IMG/VR virus record: IMGVR_UViG_3300032291_002681
Span: 27,071-91,070 of that record
Length of the DNA stretch: 64,000 nucleotides
Source of the DNA: a virus
Strand: one strand, 5' to 3'
Position numbers and translations under genes: made by a program. The notes under the pieces were generated by a model that saw only the letters and a list, made by a program, of their open reading frames with translations, searched no databases and was not told where the DNA came from. This document shows, one piece after another, positions 3,529 through 59,554 of this stretch (the stretch's first letter is position 1; each line of letters starts with the position of its first letter).

Positions 3529-6234
3529 ATGGCACTAACTCCAGAACAAAGAGCAGCTAGAGATGCAGCTAGAGAAGCGGAAGCCGCCTTGCCTATTTTA
3601 GAAAGAATTCAAAAATATAGAAATAGAATTCTTGAGTTGCAAGGAAAGGAAGGGGAATTAACTGCTGCTGAATCTGATGAATTGTATAAGCAAGAAATAC
3701 TTCTTGCTAAAAATGTTGCTATTCAAGAAAAAAGAGCAAAAAAGGCACTGGGTACTTATCAACTTGAGCTTGATATTGCCAGTGTATATACATCTCAAGC
3801 ATCGGATTTATCGTCAATTTCAAAAGTATATAAAGGACTGACAGATGTTCAGCAACAAAGTTTAAAAACCGTACAATCATCATTATCAACTGTACAAGGT
3901 TCATTGTTAGCCGATGAGAATAAAAAAGCATTATTAGATAGTACCTTAACTGGTATAACAGAATTACAAGGACTACAACAAAAAATGGCAGAAACTGGTC
4001 CGGAAGATGTAGAAACTCAAAATTCTATCTCGGCTGCGTATGCTGCGCAAATGAATAGATTAAAAGAAGCAATTGCGATAAAATTATCAATTGGAGAAAT
4101 TACACAAACTGAAGCCGATGCATTGTTGGCATCATTGGATTCGCAACAAGACAGCTTAGCAACTGCACAAAAATATGGTACAATTAATGCGGAAACCAAA
4201 GAAATAATAGAGGGGCAGATTCAGGCCTACGAAGGTATAAAAAAATCAATTAGAGGGGTAATTGGTACTGCAAAATTATTATTTAGTGGATGGCAAGGAT
4301 TTGCTAGAGTCACATTAATGGCAGCAGGACAGGCTATTGATAAATTAGGAAAAACAACAAGAGAATTTGGTGGGTTTTTAGGGGGAGCTACGGTATCAGC
4401 AACAATATTAGGAACTGTATTTGACGATGCAGGTGATGTTGCTAAAGGATTGGCAGAAGAATTGGGTGGTGTAGATAAGGCAACTTTTGGAGCTCAATTA
4501 AATACTAACCTTATGGCCATTAATATGGGTATAAGTGGTGCTGAAGCTGCAAAACTAACAGGAGCATTTGCAAGACTAAATGGTGGAAGTGTTCAAACGG
4601 CACAAAACCTTGCAGATGGAGCTAAAGAAATGGCAAAAACTGCCGGTGTAGTACCATCCAAAGTGATGGCTGATTTAGCAGGTTCTGCTGAAGAATTTGC
4701 ATTGTATGGTAAAAATGGCGGAAAAAATTTAGCACAAGCGGCAGTTCAAGCGGCTAAAATGGGAGTTAGTTTAAAAACTATGACCGGAGTTGCTGATAAT
4801 TTACTTGATTTTGAAAATTCAATCAATAGTGAATTGGAATTGGGTGCAATGCTTGGTAAAAATATTAATTTAGATAGAGCAAGAGCATTAGCATACGAAG
4901 GAGATATAGCAGGTGCAACGCAAGAAACATTAAACGCATTGGGTGGGGTTGAAGCTTTTAATCAAATGGATTATTTCCAAAAGAAAAAAACTGCGGAGTT
5001 AATGGGAGTTAGTGTTGAGGAGTTACAAAAAATGGTAACAACTCAAGAAGAAGCGGCAACGATTGGTGGACAAATAAATGGAGCATTTAATACGGTATCA
5101 GAAGGATTAACGGCAATAACAACAGGACCATTAGGTAATTTTGTAACTGGGTTAAGTGGGGCTATCGGTACAACAAAAGAAATAGGTGAAAATTTTAAAT
5201 CAGCTGGTGGGTTTTTATCGGATATGGGTGGTAAAATTAAAGGTATGTTTGGAGCAGCACCCGCATTACCAGGTACACCACCTACACCATCATTACCAGG
5301 TACACCACCAGCAGCACCATCGTTACCAAGTACTCCACCACCACCAACAACAATGGCCCCACAAGCACAAGCCGGACCAGCAGACCAAGCAAATAAAATG
5401 TCTAAAATAAAAAGTGGAGATTTGATAAAAGGGGCAGTTGCATTATTAATATTGGCAGCGGCATTATTTGTAGCAGCAAAAGCATTCCAAGAATTTGCAG
5501 AAGTAACTTGGGAATCAGTTGGTATGGGATTAGTTGCGTTAGCGGGATTAGCAGGAATCGCGTTTCTACTAAGTAAAATACAGGGTGAAATGATAAAAGG
5601 TGCTATTGCGGTAGCTATATTAGGAGCTGCATTAATTCCATTTGCATTCGCACTAAATTTAATGAGTAACGTAGATGCGGCTGGGTTACTGGCATCTGGA
5701 GCAGCACTTATAGGATTTACTGCAGCAATGTTTGTATTAGGTGCATTACTAAGTGGACCTGGAGCACTTATATTTGGAGCAGGTGTACTTGGGTTAATTG
5801 CATTAGGTGGTGCATTAGTTGTGTTTGGAGCAGGATTGAATATGGTAGGTTCTGGAATGTCAGCAATAACATCTGCATTACCATTAGTTGTAGAACAAAT
5901 TGGAATGTTGGCTCAATTAAACTTCTTACCAATATTCGGATTAGCAGCGGCATTAATGACCTTATCGGTAGCATTGGCGGCAGTTGCTGTTACTGGAATG
6001 ATGGCATTACCTGCATTACTTGCGTTGGGTTTAATAGCAGGTGGGGCAGCGGCAGTTATGGGTGGTGGTGAAGAAGGGGGTGATAGAACCGGTGAATTGA
6101 TTGATGAAATAAAAGGATTGAGAGCAGATTTGATAGCTGGTAAAATAGCAGTAAATATAGATGGACAAAAAGTTACTTCTAATGTAGGTAAAGTTGTATC
6201 TAGAATTAGTTCAAATTCATACGCCAAAGTATAA
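3529..6234 (+). CDS. Tail tape measure protein
   Basis: A 901-residue protein that should set tail length inside the tube. The first ~240 residues are Ala/Glu/Gln-rich and predicted coiled coil. A Gly/Ala-rich hydrophobic stretch follows from about 250 to 300. A Pro-rich linker (about residues 580-625, several PGTPP-like units) leads to a C-terminal block of at least five hydrophobic segments of 18-22 residues (about 640-850), then a short hydrophilic tail. Long coiled coil plus hydrophobic segments, the largest ORF after the tube genes, and the position before baseplate genes support the call. The gene ends 2 nt before the next ATG. Confidence 0.75.
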   Translation: MALTPEQRAARDAAREAEAALPILERIQKYRNRILELQGKEGELTAAESDELYKQEILLAKNVAIQEKRAKKALGTYQLELDIASVYTSQASDLSSISKVYKGLTDVQQQSLKTVQSSLSTVQGSLLADENKKALLDSTLTGITELQGLQQKMAETGPEDVETQNSISAAYAAQMNRLKEAIAIKLSIGEITQTEADALLASLDSQQDSLATAQKYGTINAETKEIIEGQIQAYEGIKKSIRGVIGTAKLLFSGWQGFARVTLMAAGQAIDKLGKTTREFGGFLGGATVSATILGTVFDDAGDVAKGLAEELGGVDKATFGAQLNTNLMAINMGISGAEAAKLTGAFARLNGGSVQTAQNLADGAKEMAKTAGVVPSKVMADLAGSAEEFALYGKNGGKNLAQAAVQAAKMGVSLKTMTGVADNLLDFENSINSELELGAMLGKNINLDRARALAYEGDIAGATQETLNALGGVEAFNQMDYFQKKKTAELMGVSVEELQKMVTTQEEAATIGGQINGAFNTVSEGLTAITTGPLGNFVTGLSGAIGTTKEIGENFKSAGGFLSDMGGKIKGMFGAAPALPGTPPTPSLPGTPPAAPSLPSTPPPPTTMAPQAQAGPADQANKMSKIKSGDLIKGAVALLILAAALFVAAKAFQEFAEVTWESVGMGLVALAGLAGIAFLLSKIQGEMIKGAIAVAILGAALIPFAFALNLMSNVDAAGLLASGAALIGFTAAMFVLGALLSGPGALIFGAGVLGLIALGGALVVFGAGLNMVGSGMSAITSALPLVVEQIGMLAQLNFLPIFGLAAALMTLSVALAAVAVTGMMALPALLALGLIAGGAAAVMGGGEEGGDRTGELIDEIKGLRADLIAGKIAVNIDGQKVTSNVGKVVSRISSNSYAKV

Positions 6235-11950: not shown

Positions 11951-12337
11951 GGGGGTGACTCGGAATTGATTACAATGAGAATTGTAGTATCACACGTAGA
12001 CAGAAGTGCTAGATGTCTTTAAATCTGTACAAAACAATAACTGACGTAGAATTATCTACTTGGAACTTCGAAGATGCTATGGCATTTGTAGGAGCTTACG
12101 ATTACGCTGTAGCAGCCTAATCACCACCCGCATCACTCGTGGGTTTTAAATAGAAGTGAACAAACCGGAGCATTACTTATCGGCTCCCTAAAACTGATAG
12201 GTTGGTGGAATCGCTGAACTAACCATTCGGCCCCAATTATTTTGGAAAGTTAATAAGATTAAACTTTATCCTAAACGTGTGAATCTCTGGTATTATGGTT
12301 ACTTTGTAAGACATGGGTTCGAATCCCATCACCTCCA
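11951..12337 (+). ncRNA. ssrA: Transfer-messenger RNA (tmRNA)
   Basis: Rescues stalled ribosomes by acting first as an alanyl-tRNA and then as a short mRNA. The acceptor stem pairs 11951-11957 (GGGGGTG) with 12330-12336 (CACCTCC), seven pairs with one G-U, and discriminator A at 12337. CCA is not encoded. The T arm is ATGGG-TTCGAAT-CCCAT just before the 3' strand. The 5' region after the stem, GACTCGGAATTGATTACA, is typical of tmRNA in place of a D arm. A long-range helix pairs CACACGT (11991-11997) with ACGTGTG (12275-12281). The tag frame ends at 12120. The gene has its own promoter and terminator. About 387 nt, a normal one-piece length. Confidence 0.93.
12091..12120 (+). other. tmRNA tag-peptide reading frame (GAYDYAVAA, stop)
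   Basis: GGA GCT TAC GAT TAC GCT GTA GCA GCC TAA gives GAYDYAVAA. It aligns with the GENNYALAA-type tags known in Bacteroidetes, which start with a Gly resume codon, and keeps the terminal AA recognised by ClpXP/ClpAP. The resume codon is inferred by alignment. The frame is open further upstream. Confidence 0.8.
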
Positions 12338-12341
12338 CAAT

Positions 12342-26919: not shown

Positions 26920-27099
26920 ATGGCACAAACAAGTCAAGAATTATTCGAACAAATCAAAGGACATTTTACAACCTTTGAAACCGAACACAATGGAACTAAA
27001 AAAGTAAACAAATCAAGAGCTAGAAAAGCAATTGGTGAGTTGAAAAAATTAGTAACTGCTTATAAGAAAGCTTCTACGGAAGAAGGAAAAGCGGCCTAA
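26920..27099 (+). CDS. Small Hc1/histone H1-like DNA-binding protein
   Basis: A 59-residue protein: ATG at 26920, stop at 27097. Charged helices 'QELFEQIKGHFTTFETEHNG', 'KVNKSRARKAIGELKKLVTAYKKAS' and the tail 'EEGKAA' resemble the short Hc1 histone-like proteins common in Bacteroidetes, including the SRARKA element. It probably binds DNA non-specifically. It sits 18 nt after the helicase gene and before a GC hairpin. It may be a host-derived nucleoid protein used to compact or mark DNA. Confidence 0.7.
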   Translation: MAQTSQELFEQIKGHFTTFETEHNGTKKVNKSRARKAIGELKKLVTAYKKASTEEGKAA

Positions 27100-46625: not shown

Positions 46626-48803
46626 ATGGCATTAACTAAACGTCTAACAAAAGGGTCTCCACTTACCGCCGGGGAGATGGATAATAATTTAGATTATCTG
46701 GAAAGCTTATTAGAAGCTGGTACGAGTGGAACATCTGGTACATCCGGTTCAAGTGGCACATCCGGAACATCCGGTTCAAGTGGAACTAGTGGAACATCTG
46801 GAACGGGAACTGCAGGAACTGCGGGAAGTTCAGGTACATCTGGAACTAGTGGAACTAGTGGAACATCTGGAACAAGCGGTACATCTGGTACATCTGGTAC
46901 ATCTGGAATTAAAGGTGATTTATTTCAATCAACATCATCAAACTCTTTAAATTTAACTACACTTACTGATAGTGATACTATTTCAATTACAATAGGAACT
47001 GGGTTGTCTTGGACACCTGGTCAACAAATGATAGTAGCTAATACTGCAACTAATAAATTAGATGTTACTGTATTAACATATAATTCGGCAAACGGACTTC
47101 TCACAGCTGATATTGATACTGGTGGTGTGAGTGGTAGTGGTACATATACTTCTTGGAGTATAAATACAAAAGGTGCTACGGGACAGGCTGGTACATCTGG
47201 TTCTTCTGGCACATCTGGAATTAATGGAACATCTGGAAGTGGCGGTACATCTGGAATCGATAGTACATCTGGAAGCGGAGGAACTTCTGGTACATCAGGA
47301 ACTTCTGGTACATCAGGAACTTCTGGAACTTCTGGTACATCAGGAACTTCTGGAACATCGGGCACATCAGGAACTTCTGGTACATCAGGAACAAATGCAA
47401 CTGCAGGAACTTCCGGTACATCGGGAACAAGTGGAACTTCCGGTACATCGGGAACAAGTGGTGCAGGTACATCTGGTACATCCGGAACTTCTGGAACATC
47501 TGGTACATCCGGAACTTCTGGAACAAGTGGGTCTGGAACTTCTGGTACATCTGGAACAAGTGGTGCAGGTGCAACTATAACTGGAAATACACCTAATGGA
47601 GTAATAACATATAATGCAGCGCCTGTTGGGTTTAATGTAGAAAGTAATCTTCAATTTGATGGGGGTTTATTATTAGTAGAGGGTGATATATCGGCATCTG
47701 GTACATTTACCGCTTCATTATCAAGTGGATATACTTGGGTTGGTGGTGCTGGTAATAGAGCTAGATTGGTAGCAACCTCATCGTTTGGTGGTGGAACTGC
47801 AACTACCGATGGTATATTTAAAACAACTGGTTCAGTTGTAGCAACAACAAACGCTGTACAAATTACTGGCTCATTGGATATAGATGGACCTATGACCGCA
47901 TCTTTAAGACAAGGATATGTTTGGGTTGGTGGAAATACGAGTAAAAATAATTTACAAGTAGCAACATCATCATTGGGTAGTGCATTAACATTACAGGATG
48001 GAATACCAACAATAGTTCCTTCTGTAAATAGAATAGTATTTAGTGGTGCAACCGTTACCAATAATAGTGGTGGCCAAGTTACTGTTACAATTACAGGTGG
48101 AGGCGGAGGTGGTACATCTGGAACTTCTGGTGTTAATGGATTAAATGGAGTTGCCGGTACAAATGGAACATCGGGAGTAAATGGTTCATCGGGGTTTGGT
48201 TCTAATGGTACTAGTGGTTCAAGTGGAGTATCTGGTACAAATGGACCGGCTGGTACATCTGGTACAAGTGGAGTAGATGGTATTGGTACTAACGGTACAT
48301 CTGGTACATCTGGTGTTGGTACAAATGGAGTTAATGGTTCTGCCGGTACTGATGGAACTTCCGGAACATCTGGTACATCCGGTGGTACTGGTAGTAATGG
48401 TGTTAATGGAACATCCGGTACATCGGGAACAAACGGAAGTTCTGGTATAACCGGAGGTGGTGGTACAGCAGGTACATCTGGTACATCTGGAACGTCTGGT
48501 ACAACTGGATTATTATCATTAAGTGGTACAGCTAATAATGGAGTTATTACTTATGATGGTGTAGTTACAACTGGAGTTGTTGAATCTGCGCTTACATTTG
48601 ATTCAACCACTCGTACGTTGGAATTAAGTGGTTCGGCAGATATATATGCAGCAGCTAGAATAAGAGGTACACTATGGGCAGGTAATACTGCACCAGCAAC
48701 TATAACTGCAGCAATTGGAACATTGGTAGTATCACAATCATTGGGTGGTGATAGAGGTGACTTGATGTATTATAATGGCGCATCTTGGGTTAAAATAGCA
48801 TAA
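46626..48803 (+). CDS. Collagen-like tail fibre / structural protein with Gly-Thr-Ser repeats
   Basis: A 725-residue fibre. The N-terminus MALTKRLTKGSPLTAGEMDN with a following coiled-coil-like 'NLDYLESLLEA' is a common attachment end of phage fibres. Three collagen-like Gly-X-Y blocks, mostly Gly-Thr-Ser, occupy about residues 32-95, 183-318 and 495-628. Between them are beta-rich modules, including two related copies ('GTFTASLSSGYTWVGG', 'GPMTASLRQGYVWVGG'). The C-terminal ~95 residues ('VITYDGVVTTGVVESALTFD', 'GDLMYYNGASWVKIA') should form the distal tip. The repeats probably trimerise and expose Thr/Ser. Confidence 0.82.
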   Translation: MALTKRLTKGSPLTAGEMDNNLDYLESLLEAGTSGTSGTSGSSGTSGTSGSSGTSGTSGTGTAGTAGSSGTSGTSGTSGTSGTSGTSGTSGTSGIKGDLFQSTSSNSLNLTTLTDSDTISITIGTGLSWTPGQQMIVANTATNKLDVTVLTYNSANGLLTADIDTGGVSGSGTYTSWSINTKGATGQAGTSGSSGTSGINGTSGSGGTSGIDSTSGSGGTSGTSGTSGTSGTSGTSGTSGTSGTSGTSGTSGTSGTNATAGTSGTSGTSGTSGTSGTSGAGTSGTSGTSGTSGTSGTSGTSGSGTSGTSGTSGAGATITGNTPNGVITYNAAPVGFNVESNLQFDGGLLLVEGDISASGTFTASLSSGYTWVGGAGNRARLVATSSFGGGTATTDGIFKTTGSVVATTNAVQITGSLDIDGPMTASLRQGYVWVGGNTSKNNLQVATSSLGSALTLQDGIPTIVPSVNRIVFSGATVTNNSGGQVTVTITGGGGGGTSGTSGVNGLNGVAGTNGTSGVNGSSGFGSNGTSGSSGVSGTNGPAGTSGTSGVDGIGTNGTSGTSGVGTNGVNGSAGTDGTSGTSGTSGGTGSNGVNGTSGTSGTNGSSGITGGGGTAGTSGTSGTSGTTGLLSLSGTANNGVITYDGVVTTGVVESALTFDSTTRTLELSGSADIYAAARIRGTLWAGNTAPATITAAIGTLVVSQSLGGDRGDLMYYNGASWVKIA
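46719..46910 (+). repeat. Gly-Thr-Ser coding repeat block 1
   Basis: Tandem 9-nt units (GGN ACN/AGN TCN/AGN) with varied codons, about 64 codons. Coding repeat, not CRISPR. Confidence 0.9.
47173..47578 (+). repeat. Gly-Thr-Ser coding repeat block 2
   Basis: Longest collagen-like block, about 135 codons, with occasional Asn, Asp and Ala. Higher-order repetition is visible at the DNA level, so the copy number may vary by slippage. Confidence 0.9.
48109..48510 (+). repeat. Gly-Thr-Ser/Asn coding repeat block 3
   Basis: More diverged block, rich in Gly-Thr-Ser, Gly-Val-Asn and Gly-Thr-Asn triplets, leading to the C-terminal tip. Confidence 0.88.
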
Positions 48804-50572: not shown

Positions 50573-51339
50573 TAACAGTTATTTTAAATGGTTACAAAAG
50601 AGGGGAGAATCTAAATGAACAAATAGAAGCTCTCAAAAATCAAACATTACCGCCGGATGAGATATTAGTATGGTACAATAATCCCGGCGATAATGATTTG
50701 ATTAATTATGATATTGGTACGGAAGTTCCTGTTGCATATTGTAATTACAACTTCGGAGTGTGGGCAAGATTTTACTTTGCTATGAACGCTAGAAATCCTT
50801 ATGTATGTGTATTTGACGATGATACAATTCCTGGTAAAAAATGGTTAGAGAATTGTATGAACACAATGAAAGAGAAAGAAGGATTGCTGGGAACGGTAGG
50901 ATTACTTTATCTAAATCCATTACCACCACAACATTCATCATACTATGAACATTACTTAAGATTTGGATGGCCTGATTTGGGTAATAATGATAGGACTGTA
51001 GAAGTTGATTTAGTAGGACATAGTTGGTTCTTTAAGAGAGAGTGGTTACCTATTATGGTTAGAGAATTACCAGACCCTAAATATAATACCTGTGGTGAAG
51101 ATATGCACTTCTCCTATATGCTACAAAAGTATGCTGGAATTAAAACGTATGTACCACCACACCCTCGTTCTGATATAGAAATGTGGGGAAGTACTAAAGG
51201 TGCAACTTATGGTGGTGATGCTAACTCACTTTGGGAATCGAACCAAAGAAGTGTAGATGGTACTCCATTCAAGCAATTGATGAATCAGTATTTTAACGAA
51301 CAAAGACAAAAAGGTTGGAAATTAGTAAATGAAAAATAA
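50569..51339 (+). CDS. GT2-like glycosyltransferase
   Basis: A 256-residue GT-A enzyme: 'ITVILNGYKRGENLNEQIEAL' opening, 'NPYVCVFDDDTIPGKKWLE' with the D-D-D metal motif, and 'DLVGHSWFFKREWLP' then 'CGEDMHFSYML' as the acceptor/catalytic region. ATGA overlap with the previous gene. Confidence 0.83.
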   Translation: MITVILNGYKRGENLNEQIEALKNQTLPPDEILVWYNNPGDNDLINYDIGTEVPVAYCNYNFGVWARFYFAMNARNPYVCVFDDDTIPGKKWLENCMNTMKEKEGLLGTVGLLYLNPLPPQHSSYYEHYLRFGWPDLGNNDRTVEVDLVGHSWFFKREWLPIMVRELPDPKYNTCGEDMHFSYMLQKYAGIKTYVPPHPRSDIEMWGSTKGATYGGDANSLWESNQRSVDGTPFKQLMNQYFNEQRQKGWKLVNEK

Positions 51340-52333
51340 ACCACTATTAATATGTTTCGGAACTAGACCTGAATGGTTAAAAGTAAAACCTCTTATCGAT
51401 ATAATGGATGAGAAGGAGTACCGATTATTATTTACAGGTCAGCATGAAGACCTATTAAATGATATTTCAGTAAATTATAAAATTCCAATTGCACAATCAC
51501 TTAGATGTGGTAGGTTAGATAATGTTATAGCATCTTGTATATCAGAATTCCCACCATATAAATTTAGTGGTGTATTGGTACAAGGTGATACAGCATCCGC
51601 ATTTGGATGTGCATTAGCAGCTTATCATAGAGATATTCCAATTTATTATATGGAAGCTGGGTTACGGAGCTACGATTTGGAAAACCCATATCCTGAAGAA
51701 GGTTATAGACAGATGATAGCTCGTTTAGCAGATGTGAATTTTGCACCAACACAACTATCAGCTGATAACTTAATTGCGGAAAGAGTAAAAGGTATTGTTC
51801 ATATAGTTGGAAACACTGTATTGGATAATCTTACCAAATATGAGAAGGGTATTTATGGTGATACTATTTTAGTAACAATGCATCGTAGAGAAAATCATCA
51901 TTGGTTAGACGAGTGGTTCAGAGAGATAAATGCGTTAGCAATAAGGTATCCAAATTTAAAATTCGTATTACCTATCCACCCGAATCCAAACGTTCAGAAA
52001 TGTAAGCATTTACTACATAATGTGGATGTTATAGAACCATTAACACACGATGAAACAATTAAACTTCTTAGAGATTGTAAATTGGTTATAACTGATAGTG
52101 GTGGATTGCAAGAAGAAGGTTCTTTTTTTAATAAGAAAGTAATAGTATGTAGAAAAACAACCGAAAGACCTGAAGGTATCGAAACTGGTCATCTTTATAT
52201 GTGTGAAGACCCAAAGAAACTGGCTGAATTATTTGGTGAATTAGAAAATAATTCGTATATTTGTAAACCTTGTCCTTATGGAGATGGTAGAGCAGCTGAA
52301 AAGATTAAAAAGATATTAGATGAAGAACTTTAG
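51329..52333 (+). CDS. UDP-GlcNAc 2-epimerase-like (WecB family)
   Basis: A 334-residue GT-B-like epimerase that would convert UDP-GlcNAc to UDP-ManNAc or a related pair. Signatures: 'CFGTRPEWLKVKPLID', 'VLVQGDTASAFGCAL', 'IYYMEAGLRSYD', 'ATMHRRENHHW'-like segment, 'ITDSGGLQEEGSF'. It supplies an amino-sugar donor for the surrounding transferases. Confidence 0.87.
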   Translation: MKNKPLLICFGTRPEWLKVKPLIDIMDEKEYRLLFTGQHEDLLNDISVNYKIPIAQSLRCGRLDNVIASCISEFPPYKFSGVLVQGDTASAFGCALAAYHRDIPIYYMEAGLRSYDLENPYPEEGYRQMIARLADVNFAPTQLSADNLIAERVKGIVHIVGNTVLDNLTKYEKGIYGDTILVTMHRRENHHWLDEWFREINALAIRYPNLKFVLPIHPNPNVQKCKHLLHNVDVIEPLTHDETIKLLRDCKLVITDSGGLQEEGSFFNKKVIVCRKTTERPEGIETGHLYMCEDPKKLAELFGELENNSYICKPCPYGDGRAAEKIKKILDEEL

Positions 52334-53093
52334 AGAACATTTTATTAAGTTCACCGAAATGATTAGAAACGATGAGCATTTCGGATTTGCTCGTTATTCC
52401 GATGGTGAACTTTATATACTTCAAAATAAAGAATTGGTATTAGATAAAGGACTAATTCAGATTGGTGATAAAAAAGAAGGTGGAGTTTATCAACCTGCCG
52501 ATTTCAAACACTATGACCCTAAACAACATGGTGAATCGTATAACAGATTAATTGAAGCGTACAAACATAGACAGCCAAATTATTACAAAGGTATTAGTTG
52601 TAGTTGTTGTGTAGGTAAAGAAGCATTTGATTTTCAGATAGATTTACATGGTGGTGATGATGAGAGTTTGACATGGGCAAACTTATGGGTAAATGGAAAC
52701 TATCCACAATTTGTATTCCAAACATTACCTATTTTATATAGTAAAGATTGTGTATTTGTTGGGCACGAAAGTGCAGATACATCAAAACTACCATTCATTA
52801 AAAAAGATTTTAGAGTAGGATATAACGCATTTGTAAACGATTATGATAAAATTGAAATTATTAGACAATGGATTAAAGAGAATAACATCACAAATCATGT
52901 ATTCTTATTTTCAGCTTCAACATTCACCAACTTGGCAGTATATGAATTATTCAGAGATTTTCCCAATAATTCCTATATTGATATTGGAACGTGTCTTACT
53001 CCGATGATGAACATGCCAACTCATAGAGGATACTTAGAGGCATTTTGGGGTTATAGAGGTGGACAGGACATTCAAAAAATATGTATATGGTAA
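52320..53093 (+). CDS. GT-D-fold-like glycosyltransferase
   Basis: A 257-residue protein. 'FGFARYSDGELYIL' near residue 20 matches the R-[YF]-x-D-G-E motif of GT-D (DUF1792-type) enzymes. 'VFQTLPILYSKDCVFVGHES' and 'NHVFLFSASTFTNLAVYELF' fit that alpha/beta fold. It is a third transferase fold in this island. Assignment is from the motif. Confidence 0.65.
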   Translation: MKNFREHFIKFTEMIRNDEHFGFARYSDGELYILQNKELVLDKGLIQIGDKKEGGVYQPADFKHYDPKQHGESYNRLIEAYKHRQPNYYKGISCSCCVGKEAFDFQIDLHGGDDESLTWANLWVNGNYPQFVFQTLPILYSKDCVFVGHESADTSKLPFIKKDFRVGYNAFVNDYDKIEIIRQWIKENNITNHVFLFSASTFTNLAVYELFRDFPNNSYIDIGTCLTPMMNMPTHRGYLEAFWGYRGGQDIQKICIW

Positions 53094-53701
53094 TAGTAGC
53101 ATGTAGTTCAGAATATTGGGAGTTTGTTAGAAAGCTTCGAATGGATGGTAGAGTAATTGATGGATTTCTCAAAACAACACCAATTACCGAAGAACAACAA
53201 ATAAAGTATATGACAGATAATTCACAACACTATCGTATTGCTTTATTAGATGGTAAGCCCGCCGGGTATGTAGGTGTGATTGAAGATGATATTAGAGTAT
53301 GTACACATCCTGATTTTTTTGGAATGGGAGTTGGTAAGTTTATGATAAAATCCGCTATGGCTATATGGCCAACTGCATACGCTAAAGTAAAGCATGGTAA
53401 TATTGCTAGTGATAAATTATTCCTTAGTTGTGGATTTGAAGTGAGTGGTAGGGATGATAATTTTACATACTATAAATTGAAAAACAAAATGGTTAGCTTA
53501 AAGAGTTCAATAACCGCAAAAGGAAAATATGTTTCTAAAATCCTACACTTTGTTGGTGGAGAAAAAAGAACTTTCAATGGAGTAGATACTGATTCAATAA
53601 AGCAAGGTCAGTTTACAAAGTTTGAAACAAAAGATGGTAGGCTTGTTATGGTAAATGATAAGAATATCCTATGTATTGAAATTATAAAAGAAAATAATTA
53701 A
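53081..53701 (+). CDS. GNAT acetyltransferase with C-terminal extension
   Basis: A 206-residue protein. Residues 1-135 form a GNAT domain: 'YRIALLDGKPAGYVGVIEDDI', 'HPDFFGMGVGKFMIKSAM' (acetyl-CoA loop), 'NIASDKLFLSCGFEVSGR'. The last ~70 residues form a separate small beta domain ('GGEKRTFNGVDTDSIKQGQFTKFET'). It probably N-acetylates the amino group installed by the neighbouring aminotransferase. Confidence 0.78.
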   Translation: MYMVIVACSSEYWEFVRKLRMDGRVIDGFLKTTPITEEQQIKYMTDNSQHYRIALLDGKPAGYVGVIEDDIRVCTHPDFFGMGVGKFMIKSAMAIWPTAYAKVKHGNIASDKLFLSCGFEVSGRDDNFTYYKLKNKMVSLKSSITAKGKYVSKILHFVGGEKRTFNGVDTDSIKQGQFTKFETKDGRLVMVNDKNILCIEIIKENN

Positions 53702-53703
53702 TT

Positions 53704-54336
53704 ATGCCAATGTTACACAACCCGTACAAAGTAGTACGAATGTTCGAAGAAGAAATAGCTAATTACACTGGAGCACCTTACGCTATTTCAGTTGATAGTT
53801 GCACTAATGCACTATTCTTAATTTGTAAGTACAATGAAGTTAAAGAGGTAACCATTCCATCTAAAACTTATCTATCAGTACCGCAATCAATTATACACGC
53901 TGGGGGTGAAGTTATCTTTGATAAAAGACCTGAAACAAATCATTGGGTGGGTGCATATCAATTGAAGCCATATCCAATTTGGGATGCGGCTAAGAGATTA
54001 ACAAAAGATATGTATATGCCCGGAACATTTATGGGGCTATCATTTCATATTAAAAAGATTCTTCCAATTTGGAAAGGTGGTATGATTTTAACTGATAACG
54101 CTGAGGCAGCTGATTGGTTTAAGAAAGCTCGTTACGAAGGTAGAAGTGAGAAGTATTACAAAGATGATGATATTACATTCTTAGGATGGAATATGTATAT
54201 GACTCCACAACAAGCAGCACATGGATTGGCAATGTTCCAAAACTTAGCAATACATAATTCAGACCAAGGTGAATTAAATGGTTATAGAGATTTAACTGAA
54301 TTCACTGTTTTCAAAGATAACAAAGTAATAGAATAA
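53704..54336 (+). CDS. Short DegT/DnrJ/EryC1-type sugar aminotransferase
   Basis: A 210-residue PLP enzyme of the sugar aminotransferase family. 'FEEEIANYTGAPYAISVDSCTNALFL', 'VTIPSKTYLSVPQSII', 'PIWDAAKRLTKDM' (catalytic Asp) and 'GLSFHIKKILPIWKGGMILT' (PLP Lys region) are all present. Usual family length is about 370, so the C-terminal domain is missing although the ORF ends cleanly and couples to the next gene. It may be a natural minimal form or depend on a partner. Activity uncertain. Confidence 0.72.
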   Translation: MPMLHNPYKVVRMFEEEIANYTGAPYAISVDSCTNALFLICKYNEVKEVTIPSKTYLSVPQSIIHAGGEVIFDKRPETNHWVGAYQLKPYPIWDAAKRLTKDMYMPGTFMGLSFHIKKILPIWKGGMILTDNAEAADWFKKARYEGRSEKYYKDDDITFLGWNMYMTPQQAAHGLAMFQNLAIHNSDQGELNGYRDLTEFTVFKDNKVIE

Positions 54337-55106
54337 TGAACATACAGGCTGACGAGATAATATTAGGTAAAAATGTTGTAATTTCACCAACAGCAACTAT
54401 TAGAGGATTGAATGGTAATGCTAAACGAGTAGTTATTGGTGATAATACATATATTGGAGATTCTGTTCAAATTATATTAGATGATTTTGAAATAGGTGAT
54501 TATTGTAAAGTTCACCATCATTGTAATTTTCACGGATACAATCCAATGAAGATAGGTCATAATGCTTGGATTGGACAAGGTACTATTATTGATAGTATTG
54601 GTGGTATGACAATTGGAAATAACTTTGGAGTAGGTGCGTATTCTCAATTGTGGTCTCATGCTAGATGGGGTGACCCATTGGCTGGATGTAATTATACCGA
54701 AATTACAAAACCAATGGTAATCGGAAACGATGTTTGGTTGGTAGGACATTGTATAGTATCACCTGTAACAATTGAAGATGGTGCTATGGCTTTGGTTGGT
54801 AGTGTTGTTACAAAGGATATGAAAGCAAATCATATTTACGGAGGAGCACCTGCAAAGGACTTAACTGATAAAATGTTACCTCAATTTACTGTAACGGCAA
54901 ATGGTGAAAAGAAAAAAATGTTAGAACAATTTGAATTACCAATTGGAATTCAATGGATTGAAGATAATTCTGAAATAGTGGATGATACAATAACTTATTT
55001 TAATATAACTGATAGAACATACACTAAAAGAGCTACCGATATTGAAATTTCATTTATGAAAAAATTACAATCTAAACTTATAAAATTTGTACCAAATGGA
55101 ATATGA
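54336..55106 (+). CDS. Left-handed beta-helix (hexapeptide) acyltransferase
   Basis: A 256-residue protein. Hexapeptide turns run through 'IILGKNVVISPTATIRG', 'VVIGDNTYIGDSVQII', 'MKIGHNAWIGQGTIID' and 'MVIGNDVWLVGHCIV', ending 'IYGGAPAKDL', as in sugar O/N-acetyltransferases. The last ~75 residues are an extra domain. It would acylate the amino sugar or glycan made by this operon. Confidence 0.85.
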   Translation: MNIQADEIILGKNVVISPTATIRGLNGNAKRVVIGDNTYIGDSVQIILDDFEIGDYCKVHHHCNFHGYNPMKIGHNAWIGQGTIIDSIGGMTIGNNFGVGAYSQLWSHARWGDPLAGCNYTEITKPMVIGNDVWLVGHCIVSPVTIEDGAMALVGSVVTKDMKANHIYGGAPAKDLTDKMLPQFTVTANGEKKKMLEQFELPIGIQWIEDNSEIVDDTITYFNITDRTYTKRATDIEISFMKKLQSKLIKFVPNGI

Positions 55107-56163
55107 TGTTTTATTTGTATGTGGTACATTGGATTATGAAAATTCAGTTAGTGGAAACTATATACTTTACAAATGCTTAAAAAAAGTTGATAATTTAAAA
55201 ATAAAAGTATTACCTTTATTTACGCATACCAAACAAGAAATAGATTCGGAAGATTTTTTGGAATTTGTACAACCAAGTCCAGAAAATTTAAATTATTTGA
55301 TTAGTATTATACCAAAACATAAAGTACTATTTTTGTCTGGTAATGATTTTCCAACCTTTTTAACAAAAATGATATGTGAAAAATTCAACAGCAAATTCGT
55401 TACAATAACAATGAGCCATTGGATGTTTGGTAATAGTTCAAATTACCCAGAAATAGAAGATGATATGGATGGTGCTATTGTTTCAGATAGACGTGATTTA
55501 TGGGAATCGTTGGATTCGACCATAATAGTTGGTTCTACCAATTCATATAATGTTTTAAAAAACAGCGAACTTAAAAATATAAAATCTGAATTGATTCCGT
55601 TCCCATTTGAAGAAATTGATATTGATACTGATTATAAAAAAACTGATAGTGATAAAAAATACATACTATGGGGAACAACACAACCACAAAGAGTTAGAAA
55701 AGGTAAAGCTTATTTTGAAAATATATTAGAGTGGCTTTATAAAAAAGTAAAAAATCCAAACGATATTATAATACATCAAATAGGACCTAAATCCGATTTA
55801 GATACTAAATTTAAAGTAGAATATATTGGATATATACCAACTAGAAAAGAATTATCTAAGGTTTATAAAAACGCTAATGTATTTGCATTAACTACACTAG
55901 CTGATGCTGGGCCTATGATGGCTGTTGAATGTATTAAAAATGAAACACCATTAGTATCATTTGCAACTAATATATCAACTGATATTGTAAAAGATGGTAA
56001 GAATGGATACATTGTCGATGGAACTGAAGAATATGCGGATAAATTATATGATATACTATATAATAAAAATTTTCATATAGATTTGGATTATGTAAAGCAA
56101 TTTAATTCGGAAGATATCGTAATGAAAAAGTATAATGAATTTTTTAAAAATATATTAAAATGA
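55096..56163 (+). CDS. GT4-like glycosyltransferase
   Basis: A 355-residue GT-B enzyme from the ATG at 55096: 'YDVLFVCGTLDYENSVSGNY', 'IEYIGYIPTRKELSKVYKNANVFA'-type C-terminal start, 'DAGPMMAVECIKNETPLVSFA' as the donor motif. More AT-rich and Lys-rich than its neighbours, which may mark later acquisition. Confidence 0.8.
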   Translation: MEYDVLFVCGTLDYENSVSGNYILYKCLKKVDNLKIKVLPLFTHTKQEIDSEDFLEFVQPSPENLNYLISIIPKHKVLFLSGNDFPTFLTKMICEKFNSKFVTITMSHWMFGNSSNYPEIEDDMDGAIVSDRRDLWESLDSTIIVGSTNSYNVLKNSELKNIKSELIPFPFEEIDIDTDYKKTDSDKKYILWGTTQPQRVRKGKAYFENILEWLYKKVKNPNDIIIHQIGPKSDLDTKFKVEYIGYIPTRKELSKVYKNANVFALTTLADAGPMMAVECIKNETPLVSFATNISTDIVKDGKNGYIVDGTEEYADKLYDILYNKNFHIDLDYVKQFNSEDIVMKKYNEFFKNILK

Positions 56164-56888
56164 AGATAGCACTTTGTTTGCATGGTATGTTTGATTCACC
56201 AATGGATACTACATCAAATGGTATAGATGGTAGAGAATATATTCAAAAGCACATAATGGATAAGGGTGATGTTGATGTATTCATTCATAGTTGGGATTTA
56301 GAAAAGCAAGGATTGATAGAAGCATTATACCAACCTAAAAAAGCTATATTCGAACCACAAAAAGATTTTAGTGAATTGATTAAAGAAAGGGGATTGGATA
56401 CTTTAGAAGGATGTCCTCGTTCACCACAATCAGTACTATCTCATTTATATAGTGTAACCGAAGTAATGAAATTACCACATCAGCAAACTGGCGTAACGTA
56501 TGATATAATTATCAAAGCTCGTTTTGATTTGGGTAGAATAAATCGCAATACCTCTGGACCTGGTTTGGGAAACCCATTTGCGGTTCAATGTATTAATTTC
56601 CAAACTGATATTCAAAAAGGAAAATTATATAATGCAAATTGGAATTATTTTAATATGGGCCCTGCTGATATGTGGTTCTATGGTTCACCGGATGTAATGG
56701 TTGAATTTACAACTCTATTTAATTTTTTAGATGAGCAAATGAAATTAGATTCGGAGTTTCATAAATTCGCAACTGAAATAGAAAATAATAGAGGTGACCT
56801 TTCAAATGCAATAGCATTTTACAAGTGGTGGATGATTAAAACCGATTTGTGGGATAACAGAATAAATTTAGATACAATATGGGAATAA
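56160..56888 (+). CDS. Putative glycosyltransferase-like protein
   Basis: A 242-residue protein. It starts 'KIALCLHGMFDSPMD' and has 'DVFIHSWDLEKQGLIEALYQP' and 'TYDIIIKARFDLGRIN', a pattern of GT-A-like phage and capsule proteins in which R-x-D stands for the D-x-D motif. The protein at 59558 has the same layout ('YDWYIKSRCDLNFQ'). ATGA overlap with the previous gene. Activity not proven. Confidence 0.6.
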   Translation: MKIALCLHGMFDSPMDTTSNGIDGREYIQKHIMDKGDVDVFIHSWDLEKQGLIEALYQPKKAIFEPQKDFSELIKERGLDTLEGCPRSPQSVLSHLYSVTEVMKLPHQQTGVTYDIIIKARFDLGRINRNTSGPGLGNPFAVQCINFQTDIQKGKLYNANWNYFNMGPADMWFYGSPDVMVEFTTLFNFLDEQMKLDSEFHKFATEIENNRGDLSNAIAFYKWWMIKTDLWDNRINLDTIWE

Positions 56889-57574
56889 GTGTACCAATTA
56901 TAGTATATACACATACTGATATGAAAGATATTTGGCCAATGTTTTTTGGGCAATTAAAAAAGTATATTGGTGATACGAAAGTATATGTTGCAGTTAATGA
57001 AGATGATACGCAAATATCCGATTATATACGCATTATATACGATGATACCAAAGAATATACTGAAAGATGGAAAGATATTTTGGATAAGATAGATGAAGAA
57101 ACTTTTATGTTTATGCATGAAGATATGATTTTATTTGATAAAATTGATTTCCAATCATTAGAAAAGTATATAGGTTATATTAATAACGAATCAGCTGAAA
57201 GTATTAAACTTATATTAGCCGGTGATGGATTTATTGAATCTTCGTTTGATAAAACATTAGTAACAAATCAATATTCTAAATTTTCAATACAACCAACAAT
57301 AACAACTAAAAAAGTATTTAGAGGACATATTGATACGTTACCTAAACTTAATATTTGGCAATTCGAAGAAGCTGTTATTACACATGGTAGTGATTATATG
57401 GTTAGAATTGGCGGAGAGAGAAAGAGAGGCTTGTATCACTACGATAGTTTGGTATTCCCTTACATAGCAACCGCAATTAACAAAGGAAAGTGGAATCTAA
57501 TAGAATATCAGAAAGAACTTAATCCTATGTTTGAAGAATATAATATAAACCCATTTGAAAGAGGAATGTCATGA
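56879..57574 (+). CDS. Putative glycosyltransferase-like protein
   Basis: A 231-residue protein. 'VPIIVYTHTDMKDIWPMFFGQLKKY', 'TFMFMHEDMILFDKIDF' (H-E-D-M in the place of D-x-D) and a late 'GERKRGLYHYDSLVFPYIA' suggest a GT-A-like fold. Overlaps both neighbours. Function inferred mainly from context. Confidence 0.55.
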   Translation: MGISVPIIVYTHTDMKDIWPMFFGQLKKYIGDTKVYVAVNEDDTQISDYIRIIYDDTKEYTERWKDILDKIDEETFMFMHEDMILFDKIDFQSLEKYIGYINNESAESIKLILAGDGFIESSFDKTLVTNQYSKFSIQPTITTKKVFRGHIDTLPKLNIWQFEEAVITHGSDYMVRIGGERKRGLYHYDSLVFPYIATAINKGKWNLIEYQKELNPMFEEYNINPFERGMS

Positions 57575-58935
57575 CGAAATTAATAGTATTCGATTTAGAT
57601 GGTGTGCTAGTCGAAGCAAAAGAAATACACTACAATACCCTAAACCAAGCTCTAAAAGAAATTGATGAGAAGTATATAATTACTGAAGCTGAACATCTAT
57701 CAACTTACGATGGATTAAAGACAACTCAAAAGCTTGAGATGCTTACAAAGAATAAAGGATTACATACTGAATTCTACGATAGTATTTGGTATAGAAAGCA
57801 ACACTTAACTATCGAAGCTATTTCAGAGCTACAACCGGATTTACAAAAGATTGAGTTGTTCAAAGAACTTCGTAATATGGGATACAAATTGGCAGTTGCT
57901 TCAAACTCAATTAGAAGGTCTGTGTTGGTTATGTTAGCAAAGATAGGGATTATTGAGTATATGGATTTAATCATCTCTAATGAGGATGTAAAGAACTCCA
58001 AACCACATCCTGAAATGTATTGGAAAGCTATGAGTATGATGGGATGCTTGCCCGAAGAAACTCTAATTGTTGAGGACTCACCGCATGGTTTATTGGCAGC
58101 AAGTAGAAGTAGAGCAACTGTACTAAGAGTAGATAATCCAAAAGATTTGACATTAGAAAAAATAGTAAACAAATTAAACGAAAATAAAAGTATGAGTATT
58201 CCAAAATGGCAAGGTGGTAAGATGAATGTTCTTATCCCAATGGCCGGAGCAGGTAGCAGATTTGCACAAGCTGGTTATACGTTTCCAAAACCACTAATTG
58301 ATGTGGAAGGTAAACCAATGATTCAGGTTGTTGTTGATAATTTAAACATCGATGCTACATTTATTTATGTAGTTCAAAAATCACATAGAGAACAATACAA
58401 CTTAGATACCCTTTTAAATCTAATCACTCCTAATTGTAAGATTGTGGAAGTTGATGGATTAACCGAAGGAGCAGCTTGTACAACTCTATTAGCAAAAGAA
58501 TTCATTGATTCAGATTCGCCTTTACTTATGGCAAACTCTGACCAATTCTTAGAGTGGGATAGTAATGAGTTTATGTATAAGATGATTGAGCAAAAAGTTG
58601 ATGGTGGTATTCTTTCATTCCATTCAACACATCCGAAATGGTCATTCGCTAAAGTGGATGAATATGGATATGTAACCGAAGTACAAGAAAAGAATCCAAT
58701 TTCAGATATTGCAACTGTTGGTGTGTATTATTGGGCTAAAGGTTCTGATTATGTAAAGTACGCAGAACAAATGATTGAAAAAAATATCAGAACTAATAAT
58801 GAGTTCTATGTTTGTCCTGTTTACAACGAAGCAATTGCTGATTGTAAGAAAATTAAAACATTCAACATTGATAAAATGTGGGGGTTAGGAACTCCTGAAG
58901 ATTTAAAACATTATTTAGAAAATTATGGAAAATAA
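57571..58935 (+). CDS. Fusion: HAD phosphatase + sugar-phosphate nucleotidyltransferase
   Basis: A 454-residue bifunctional protein. Residues 1-205 are a HAD phosphatase/phosphoglucomutase-type domain with 'IVFDLDGVLVEAKEIHYN', 'LAVASNSIRRSVLV' and 'ETLIVEDSPHGLLAA'. From ~217 the nucleotidyltransferase starts 'MNVLIPMAGAGSRFAQAGYTFPKPLIDVEG', with 'LMANSDQFLEWD' as metal site. It could remove one phosphate or isomerise a sugar phosphate and then make an NDP-sugar. The internal Met at the start of domain two might also allow separate translation. Confidence 0.85.
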   Translation: MTKLIVFDLDGVLVEAKEIHYNTLNQALKEIDEKYIITEAEHLSTYDGLKTTQKLEMLTKNKGLHTEFYDSIWYRKQHLTIEAISELQPDLQKIELFKELRNMGYKLAVASNSIRRSVLVMLAKIGIIEYMDLIISNEDVKNSKPHPEMYWKAMSMMGCLPEETLIVEDSPHGLLAASRSRATVLRVDNPKDLTLEKIVNKLNENKSMSIPKWQGGKMNVLIPMAGAGSRFAQAGYTFPKPLIDVEGKPMIQVVVDNLNIDATFIYVVQKSHREQYNLDTLLNLITPNCKIVEVDGLTEGAACTTLLAKEFIDSDSPLLMANSDQFLEWDSNEFMYKMIEQKVDGGILSFHSTHPKWSFAKVDEYGYVTEVQEKNPISDIATVGVYYWAKGSDYVKYAEQMIEKNIRTNNEFYVCPVYNEAIADCKKIKTFNIDKMWGLGTPEDLKHYLENYGK

Positions 58936-59554
58936 TATAAAAGAAAGCTGGTATCATCCGGATTGGCAAGTTAATAGAATAAATTTTATTCTTTCAAAAT
59001 ATCCAAAAGAATTTTTCAAAGGAAAACGAATATTAGAATTAGGAGCATGTAATGGTTATATAAGTGCATATTTTAAATCAATTGGAGCGGAAGTTTTTGT
59101 AGTTGAAGGCCGAAGCGAAAATGTAGAAAAAATAAAAGAATACTATCCTGATTTGAATGTAGAGCAATATAATTTAGACACTGATGAATGGAAGTGGGGC
59201 AAGTGGGATATTATTATTAATTTTGGATTATACTACCATTTAGAAAAATTTCATAAAGAGCATTTAGAAAATTGTATTAATAACTGTGATTTGATGTTTT
59301 TTGAAACCGTAGTATATGACAGTGTTGAATCAGGATTATATTTTAGATATGAAGAAGGGTATGACCAATCACTAAGTAATAATGGTGGTACGCCATCAAC
59401 TTCGTATGTTGAAAATATATTCAATGAGAATAATAAAAACTATGAAAAATTTAAAGATACTTCACTAAATGCATATCAGCATTTTTATGATTGGGAAGAT
59501 ACTGGAAATAATATATTCCATCAAAACCAAAGAAGATTTTGGATAGTAAATTAA
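58925..59554 (+). CDS. Class I SAM-dependent methyltransferase
   Basis: A 209-residue enzyme with motif I 'KRILELGACNGYISAYF', 'VFVVEGRSENVEKIKEYY' (acidic strand) and 'WDIIINFGLYYHLEKF' (motif IV region without a DPPY-type motif). Its location among transferases suggests O-methylation of a glycan, not DNA. Confidence 0.8.
   Translation: MENNIKESWYHPDWQVNRINFILSKYPKEFFKGKRILELGACNGYISAYFKSIGAEVFVVEGRSENVEKIKEYYPDLNVEQYNLDTDEWKWGKWDIIINFGLYYHLEKFHKEHLENCINNCDLMFFETVVYDSVESGLYFRYEEGYDQSLSNNGGTPSTSYVENIFNENNKNYEKFKDTSLNAYQHFYDWEDTGNNIFHQNQRRFWIVN

Follow-up and report, generated by a model that had tools for sequence, protein, structure and literature searches.

Does a closely packed row of sugar genes in a viral genome encode one biosynthetic pathway or a set of separable functions? 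The question is raised by an island in IMG/VR virus record IMGVR_UViG_3300032291_002681, a record of 91,070 bases from which a stretch of 64,000 nucleotides (positions 27,071 to 91,070; hereafter the window, to which all coordinates refer) was analysed. The island extends from 51329 to 58935, and its genes all lie on one strand, closely packed, several of them with overlapping ends. According to an original prediction, a 2-epimerase, a DegT-type aminotransferase, a GNAT, a hexapeptide acyltransferase and a protein fusing HAD phosphatase and nucleotidyltransferase (NTase) domains form here most of a route to the donor of an N-acylated amino sugar. With moderate confidence we favour another reading, in which the island is composed of separable modules of T4-like phage glycan modification and is not one linear pathway. 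Gene families were assigned by Pfam, NCBIfam and PDB sequence searches. All genes named in the prediction were confirmed at their places and strand; the GT-D-like and GT4-type glycosyltransferases (from 52320 and 55099) and two uncharacterised proteins (from 56160 and 56879) were missing from that list, although they lie within its span:

51329–52333, plus strand: non-hydrolysing UDP-N-acetylglucosamine (UDP-GlcNAc) 2-epimerase of the WecB type, 334 amino acids (aa); Epimerase_2, 4e-67
52320–53093, plus strand: GT-D-like glycosyltransferase, 257 aa; no Pfam match of its own, linked by BLASTP to a PF08759 relative
53081–53701, plus strand: GNAT acyltransferase with about 65 aa of extra C-terminal domain; PF00583, 1.8e-6
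53704–54336, plus strand: minimal DegT-family aminotransferase (mini-DegT), 210 aa; PF01041, 1.8e-21
54336–55106, plus strand: left-handed beta-helix (hexapeptide, LbH) acyltransferase, 256 aa; PF00132, 2.7e-11; maltose O-acetyltransferase in PDB, 2e-13
55099–56163, plus strand: GT4-type glycosyltransferase; PF00534, 3.3e-13
56160–56888, plus strand: uncharacterised protein with relatives in such islands (28/88 loci); no Pfam match; phrog_13607 of unknown function, 4.9e-9
56879–57574, plus strand: uncharacterised protein that precedes the fusion in loci of the window type (12/88 loci); no Pfam match
57571–58935, plus strand: HAD-NTase fusion, 454 aa; HAD_2, 1.1e-33, residues 5–185; NTP_transferase, 3.7e-10, residues 224–413

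The company kept by these genes in other genomes bears most directly on the question. Of the relatives of the fusion in IMG/VR 80 of 204 were kept, five of 11 named phage records with one place covering 80% of the fusion were fetched, and 66 cellular loci were examined. Companion counts were confined to loci whose fusion open reading frame (ORF) reaches at least 400 aa and covers 85% of the query; 84 viral loci and 24 cellular ones thus encode the full-length fusion, with flanks of up to 10 kb a side (many shorter). For mini-DegT 80 of 182 IMG/VR relatives were kept, with flanks of up to 6 kb. In the neighbourhood of the fusion mini-DegT was registered in 15/84 viral loci (including two distant end-cut copies, L022 and L036, at 45% identity, and two more cut copies, L011 and L066) and 1/24 cellular loci, the epimerase in 14/84 and 1/24, and neither of them was present in the fetched flanks of 64/84 viral loci. 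Reciprocally, the fusion was missing from 61/80 mini-DegT loci. It was on these linkage counts that epimerase, DegT, acyltransferases and fusion as a single route was dropped as the main explanation.

The commonest partner of the fusion is a small protein resembling glycerophosphodiesterases (GDPD-like), encoded nearby in 57/84 viral (28 adjacent) and 13/24 cellular loci (11 adjacent). In the 80 DegT-selected viral loci, taken as a control, its gene was found in 5/19 loci with the fusion and in 0/61 without it. Genes for LicD phosphotransferase (PF04991, 1e-44 and 2e-43 in two members tested) were registered in 0/84 viral and 8/24 cellular loci, adjacent to the fusion in all 8, which belong to one Legionella-type clade. 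On a midpoint-rooted tree without support values, built from a selection of 25 IMG/VR, 24 cellular and 3 cyanophage sequences together with that of the window, LicD loci form one clade, while GDPD-like loci are distributed over several branches. A further 41 cellular loci had the NTase and no full fusion (three of them, L113–L115, start within the NTase, where the contig or locus breaks off, and may be cut fusions); 24 had the GDPD-like gene, 22 a separate HAD gene and 19 both, adjacent tandem NTases occurred in 30, and a class II aldolase domain was found in the one neighbour tested. Contigs labelled Lokiarchaeota, Poseidoniales or Balneolaceae are possibly mis-binned phage DNA. In cellular loci such as L133 and L148, genes for tandem NTases and for GDPD-like, HAD, class II aldolase-like and GT2-like proteins recur as a bacterial cluster that is not known to have been described. 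The LbH gene, considered as a possible marker of the fusion, was dropped, being present in 0/88 fusion-selected loci.

Because the recurrent partners of the fusion elsewhere are a GDPD-like protein or LicD, it more likely makes a donor for decorations attached through phosphodiester bonds than a component of the DegT route, and for the window phage itself we infer the same. The fusion is best regarded as an independent activation enzyme with a history linked to GDPD-like or LicD partners; in this lineage it stands beside amino-sugar modules.

What can be expected from the fusion itself? The coexistence of both domains in one chain, as predicted, was borne out by Pfam domains: a HAD phosphatase-like part (residues ~1–205) is followed by an NTase (~217–454), and on the evidence of sequence both keep their main catalytic motifs. 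In the AlphaFold model (pLDDT 87.1) the relative placement of the two domains is uncertain because of the pTM value of 0.57. The first domain belongs to HAD-IA (TIGR01509, 48.7 against a cut-off of 29.4, together with DxD, K and ED motifs), and its residues D8, D10, N112, K144, E168 and D169 are invariant in 30 sequences. Also invariant in the 30 sequences are G226, G228 and R230 (G-x-G-x-R), P239-K240-P241-L242 (PKPL) and D324 of the NTase, which exceeds the gathering score of PF00483 (40.2 against 21.2 bits).

The original prediction allowed either removal or shift of a phosphate by the HAD domain. A shift would follow the logic of beta-phosphoglucomutase (beta-PGM): phosphate would be transferred from C6 to beta-C1, and a nucleoside diphosphate (NDP)-beta-sugar would then be made by the NTase. 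In line with this, VIA lists beta-PGM structures as the matches of the HAD domain (6h8y with 200 aligned residues, Z 22.8 and rmsd 2.2), and H20 and K76 of the fusion, both invariant, align with H20 and K76 of beta-PGM. By sequence, however, MtlD mannitol-1-phosphate phosphatase comes narrowly ahead (66.6 bits against 61.9 for beta-PGM), and the beta-PGM equivalog cut-off is failed widely (TIGR01990, 86.1 against 189.4 bits). Arg49 of beta-PGM, like Lys76 a functional residue, is opposed in the phmmer alignment by Gly48, and residues 46–54 of the window protein contain no Arg; three of four aligned cyanophage homologues have Arg at position 52. Identity as a mutase was disfavoured on the equivalog score and the missing Arg49 counterpart, and we consider the shift-based scheme very improbable. 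Although sequence and structure matches differ, the domain appears more phosphatase-like than mutase-like. Of the two predicted actions, removal is the likelier.

For the NTase the closest solved structure is 4evw (27% identity, Z 27.2, rmsd 2.2, 227 aligned). Matches below it in VIA and Foldseek (GlmU, UDP-glucose pyrophosphorylase, RmlA) give a general pyrophosphorylase fold, which does not single out a substrate. The domain falls far below the cut-off of RmlA glucose-1-phosphate thymidylyltransferase (TIGR01208, 47.6 against 320.25 bits), and before its terminal GTP/GVP stretch stands Gly438; RmlA-type enzymes have Asp at this place, which is missing in 4evw too. The 50 structure matches listed for the NTase contained no CDP-alcohol enzyme of the LicC kind, which excludes nothing. 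Two other architectures were encountered: in Synechococcus phage Bellamy (L088:5998-7152) an NTase of this type is joined to a LacAB_rpiB ribose/galactose isomerase domain (PF02502, 4e-32), and phage S-SM2 has a single protein with two NTase-like halves.

Another route in which a phosphatase and an NTase act in turn is that of heptose: a kinase makes a sugar 1,n-bisphosphate, a HAD enzyme (GmhB) removes the distal phosphate, and an NTase (HddC or HldC) activates the 1-phosphate. A PfkB kinase (cluster c45; best NCBIfam match rfaE_dom_I, 9e-39 in the member tested) accompanies the fusion in 8/84 viral loci, adjacent in 7 and two genes off in one, and HddC-like 5xhw is among weak PDB matches. 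On the other hand, no adjacent c45-type kinase was found in 77/84 viral loci and none in the 24 cellular loci, other kinases not having been searched for; the rfaE match remains far under its cut-off (133 against 345 bits), and the HAD of the fusion is beta-PGM/MtlD-like, GmhB being of another HAD class. This scheme seems quite improbable.

Several observations oppose the modular reading and the phosphodiester role of the fusion. In seven fusion loci without GDPD-like or LicD genes the heptose-7-phosphate-kinase-like kinase lies beside the fusion (six) or two genes away (one), and these loci fit the bisphosphate route instead. The GDPD-like gene is present in only 9/20 viral fusion loci having mini-DegT or epimerase. 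Neither it nor LicD had a match in the 91-kb, possibly incomplete record of the window phage; the GDPD-like search, as a positive control, recovered the gene in 4/4 related records (that of L037 was in the query alignment, those of the other three were not). The gene could lie in a part of the genome that the record misses, come from the host or be lacking altogether. The nature of the partner is itself weakly defined: three short and two longer cellular members gave no Pfam match and one member no NCBIfam match, and the profile match to solved GDPD 7e0v is modest (E 7.5e-4). Nevertheless, H6-R7, E35-x-D37 and H49 are invariant in 11 sequences, a pattern that we take to be the GDPD motif HR...ExD...H, and one cyanophage record annotates the protein as GDPD. 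The counts, too, depend on flank length. Among the 34 IMG/VR fusion loci having flanks of 9.9 kb or more on each side GDPD-like genes were found in 20, mini-DegT in 12, the epimerase in 12 and the kinase in 6; since mini-DegT and epimerase reach 12/34 each, short flanks lower their overall counts. Finally, window-type loci such as L181–L183 hold the epimerase, DegT/acyltransferase and fusion modules together in unchanged order, and joint use of the three in the window lineage is possible.

The last two observations speak for one N-acylated amino-sugar pathway, where the fusion would supply an NDP-sugar, a host dehydratase would turn it into the keto sugar, DegT would aminate and GNAT or LbH would acylate the product; contiguity on the same strand and the strong pairing of DegT with acyltransferases are in its favour as well. 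Truncated flanks weaken the counts of separate occurrence that oppose it. Truncation accounts, however, for part and not all of the difference in companions, and the partners of the cellular fusions are LicD or GDPD-like. A single pathway is consequently held to be unlikely, and separable modules remain the reading that we prefer.

The pairing of DegT with acyltransferases is the part of the predicted N-acylated amino-sugar route that stood. The gene directly upstream of mini-DegT in 80 viral loci encodes GNAT in 38, LbH in 13, a GT-D-like protein in 3 and other products in 26, and GNAT or LbH is found no more than two genes away in 56/80. The other products include one Formyl_trans_N protein (L221), one further GNAT (L179) and four small ORFs resembling the C-terminal part of GNAT; six form one cluster, the tested member of which is a sulfotransferase, contrary to a simple amine-then-acyl picture, and the remaining few are mixed. 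Cultured Flavobacterium phage immuto_3-5A has mini-DegT followed by a PglD-like hexapeptide protein. Since an acyltransferase is near mini-DegT in most of the 80 loci, amination with subsequent N-acylation is well supported for most, not all, of the relatives. In the related loci L164–L167 an independent small ORF (83 aa in L164) corresponds to the extra C-terminal residues of the window GNAT. In L244 (Synechococcus phage S-SCSM2R) a mini-DegT relative adjoins genes annotated as radical SAM maturase, 2OG-Fe(II) oxygenase and inosamine amidinotransferase, which may reflect aminocyclitol-like chemistry in a phage.

The DegT protein is unusual in size. Its 210 aa contain the fold-type I core of DegT/DnrJ/EryC1/StrS aminotransferases (PF01041, 77 bits against a cut-off of 19.8) and lack the full-length chain of about 360–440 aa with a complete C-terminal small domain; the solved DegT-type chains that it matched have 358–443 aa. 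Of its BLAST relatives in DegT- and LbH-selected loci 92/93 have 200–239 aa. Asp94 and Lys118, which we take to be residues of the pyridoxal phosphate site, are kept in 100% of 70 non-redundant sequences, that of the window included, and this invariance disfavours a degenerate or broken copy. The AlphaFold model has pLDDT 80.7 and pTM 0.83, with residues 147–159 below 50.

For the epimerase, the WecB equivalog cut-off is exceeded (TIGR00236, 224.5 against 210.15 bits), and alignment to 5enz shows preservation of GDT, EAGLR, PEE and HRREN, presumably active-site stretches. The GT-D-like protein gave a BLASTP match of 7e-13 to L195:5288-5962, itself matching PF08759 GT-D. A close relative of its gene accompanies the epimerase in 38/38 DegT-selected and 14/14 fusion-selected loci that hold the epimerase, which suggests that the pair synthesizes and transfers a ManNAc-type sugar. 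Only close matches enter these counts: in L195 the distant GT-D relative lies beside mini-DegT with no epimerase match, and in fusion-selected L032 and L033 the GT-D-like gene, at the locus edge, occurs without the epimerase.

From the observed domains, conserved residues and linkage of the modules we infer substrates, nucleotide, order of steps and acceptor as follows. In module A the WecB-type epimerase would convert UDP-GlcNAc to UDP-N-acetylmannosamine (UDP-ManNAc), with the GT-D-like glycosyltransferase as its companion. In module B minimal DegT would aminate probably a host NDP-4-keto sugar, whereupon an interchangeable neighbour (GNAT or LbH, formyltransferase in one relative) would acylate the amine. 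In module C the HAD-type phosphatase would take one phosphate off a sugar or polyol, and another, still in place, would be activated with a nucleotide by the NTase domain. The lack of a dehydratase noted originally extends to the whole 91,070-base record, which may be incomplete, so far as the dehydratase-type families PF01370 and PF16363 reveal (0 matches each); both families were detected in 14/14 control genomes.

The window phage is by inference T4-like, because its record encodes members of the tail sheath, clamp loader, DnaB-type helicase and DNA polymerase families; the polymerase matches T4-type phage polymerases, best that of Microcystis phage Mel-JY01 (48%). Two genes outside the island deserve attention:

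46626–48803, plus strand, upstream of the island: collagen-like GTS-repeat protein; PF01391, 8e-27; 9- and 27-base tandem repeats
58925–59554, plus strand, after the fusion: methyltransferase-like protein; PF13489, 7.6e-6, 26.2 bits against a cut-off of 27; 1/88 loci

The first of them could be the phage's own glycan target. Coding for Gly/Ser/Thr repeats of collagen-like type upstream of glycosyltransferases was also noticed in relatives L008, L009, L014, L015, L031 and L038. Elsewhere in the window, a phage-encoded transfer-messenger RNA is located at 11951–12338 (plus strand; tag VNKPEHYLSAP according to ARAGORN; RF00023 of Rfam, 65.9 bits). Two ORFs of 901 aa at 3529 and 6237, suspected of tandem duplication, have no similarity (E 0.16), and this was dismissed.

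Thus, the island is real, conserved and more modular than first proposed. A bolder statement, which we offer as a doubtful possibility, is that the fusion and its GDPD-like protein (or LicD) together activate and transfer a glycan substituent linked by phosphodiester, a system so far undescribed, and that the 210-aa DegT may be a sugar aminotransferase active in spite of its unusually small size, on which N-acyl groups can be exchanged. Such a system would be common to aquatic phages, SAR11 bacteria and Legionella, with an unfused form in Bacteroidota and Alphaproteobacteria. No description of this HAD-NTase fusion was recognised among the open-licence papers listed, which is not proof of absence. 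If true, combined modules would allow the phage combinatorial changes in the decoration of a surface glycan or of its collagen-like protein, and a conserved half-size DegT, should it be active, would reveal the small part of that fold which catalysis needs. Glycan islands of T4-like aquatic phages are known already, their chemistry being largely unassigned; the linkage data divide this one into modules and, through the GDPD-like and LicD partners, give the fusion a functional lead other than amino-sugar synthesis.

How do these proteins compare with known systems? The mini-DegT model is closest to GDP-perosamine synthase (3bn1/3dr4), sharing its fold over 192 residues (Z 18.7 and rmsd 2.8 for 3bn1), and K118 aligns with a lysine of chain index 188, which we take to be the K186 of a PDB title (K186A), assuming an offset of 2. 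Unlike the window protein, these synthases have chains of 364–391 aa, and it is the window gene that is paired with GNAT or LbH genes. The HAD domain resembles the phosphatase domain of MtlD and beta-PGM in sequence, fold and the positions D8xD10, S/T111-N112, K144 and E168-D169; it differs in being fused to an NTase and, from beta-PGM, in Arg49. Foldseek rows of MtlD for the fusion, with 340–443 columns at rmsd 15–20, are not clean domain matches. The solved NTase 4evw is a nucleoside-diphosphate-sugar pyrophosphorylase of Vibrio cholerae and, unlike its viral counterpart, is unfused.

Precedent for a phosphodiester donor is provided by CDP-6-D-fructose cytidylyltransferases HS5.18 and Mnp1 (PMC10918830), NTases of surface polysaccharide clusters that use CTP to activate a non-anomeric phosphate. 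Unlike the fusion, they work with an oxidoreductase; the main text of PMC10918830 has 0 mentions each of HAD and LicD. Phosphoglycerate cytidylyltransferase CpgD (PMC12275187) is likewise a precedent, as an NTase that activates the phosphate of a polyol-type group destined for surface polymers or lipids. At the level of the whole island, host-recognition clusters of pelagimyophages and cyanomyophages place glycosyltransferases and lipopolysaccharide-type genes beside tail fibre genes (PMC7029224, where nucleotidyltransferase and aminotransferase have 0 mentions each in the main text). Like the locus described here, those clusters belong to T4-like aquatic phages, are rich in glycosyltransferases and are associated with collagen repeats in structural proteins.

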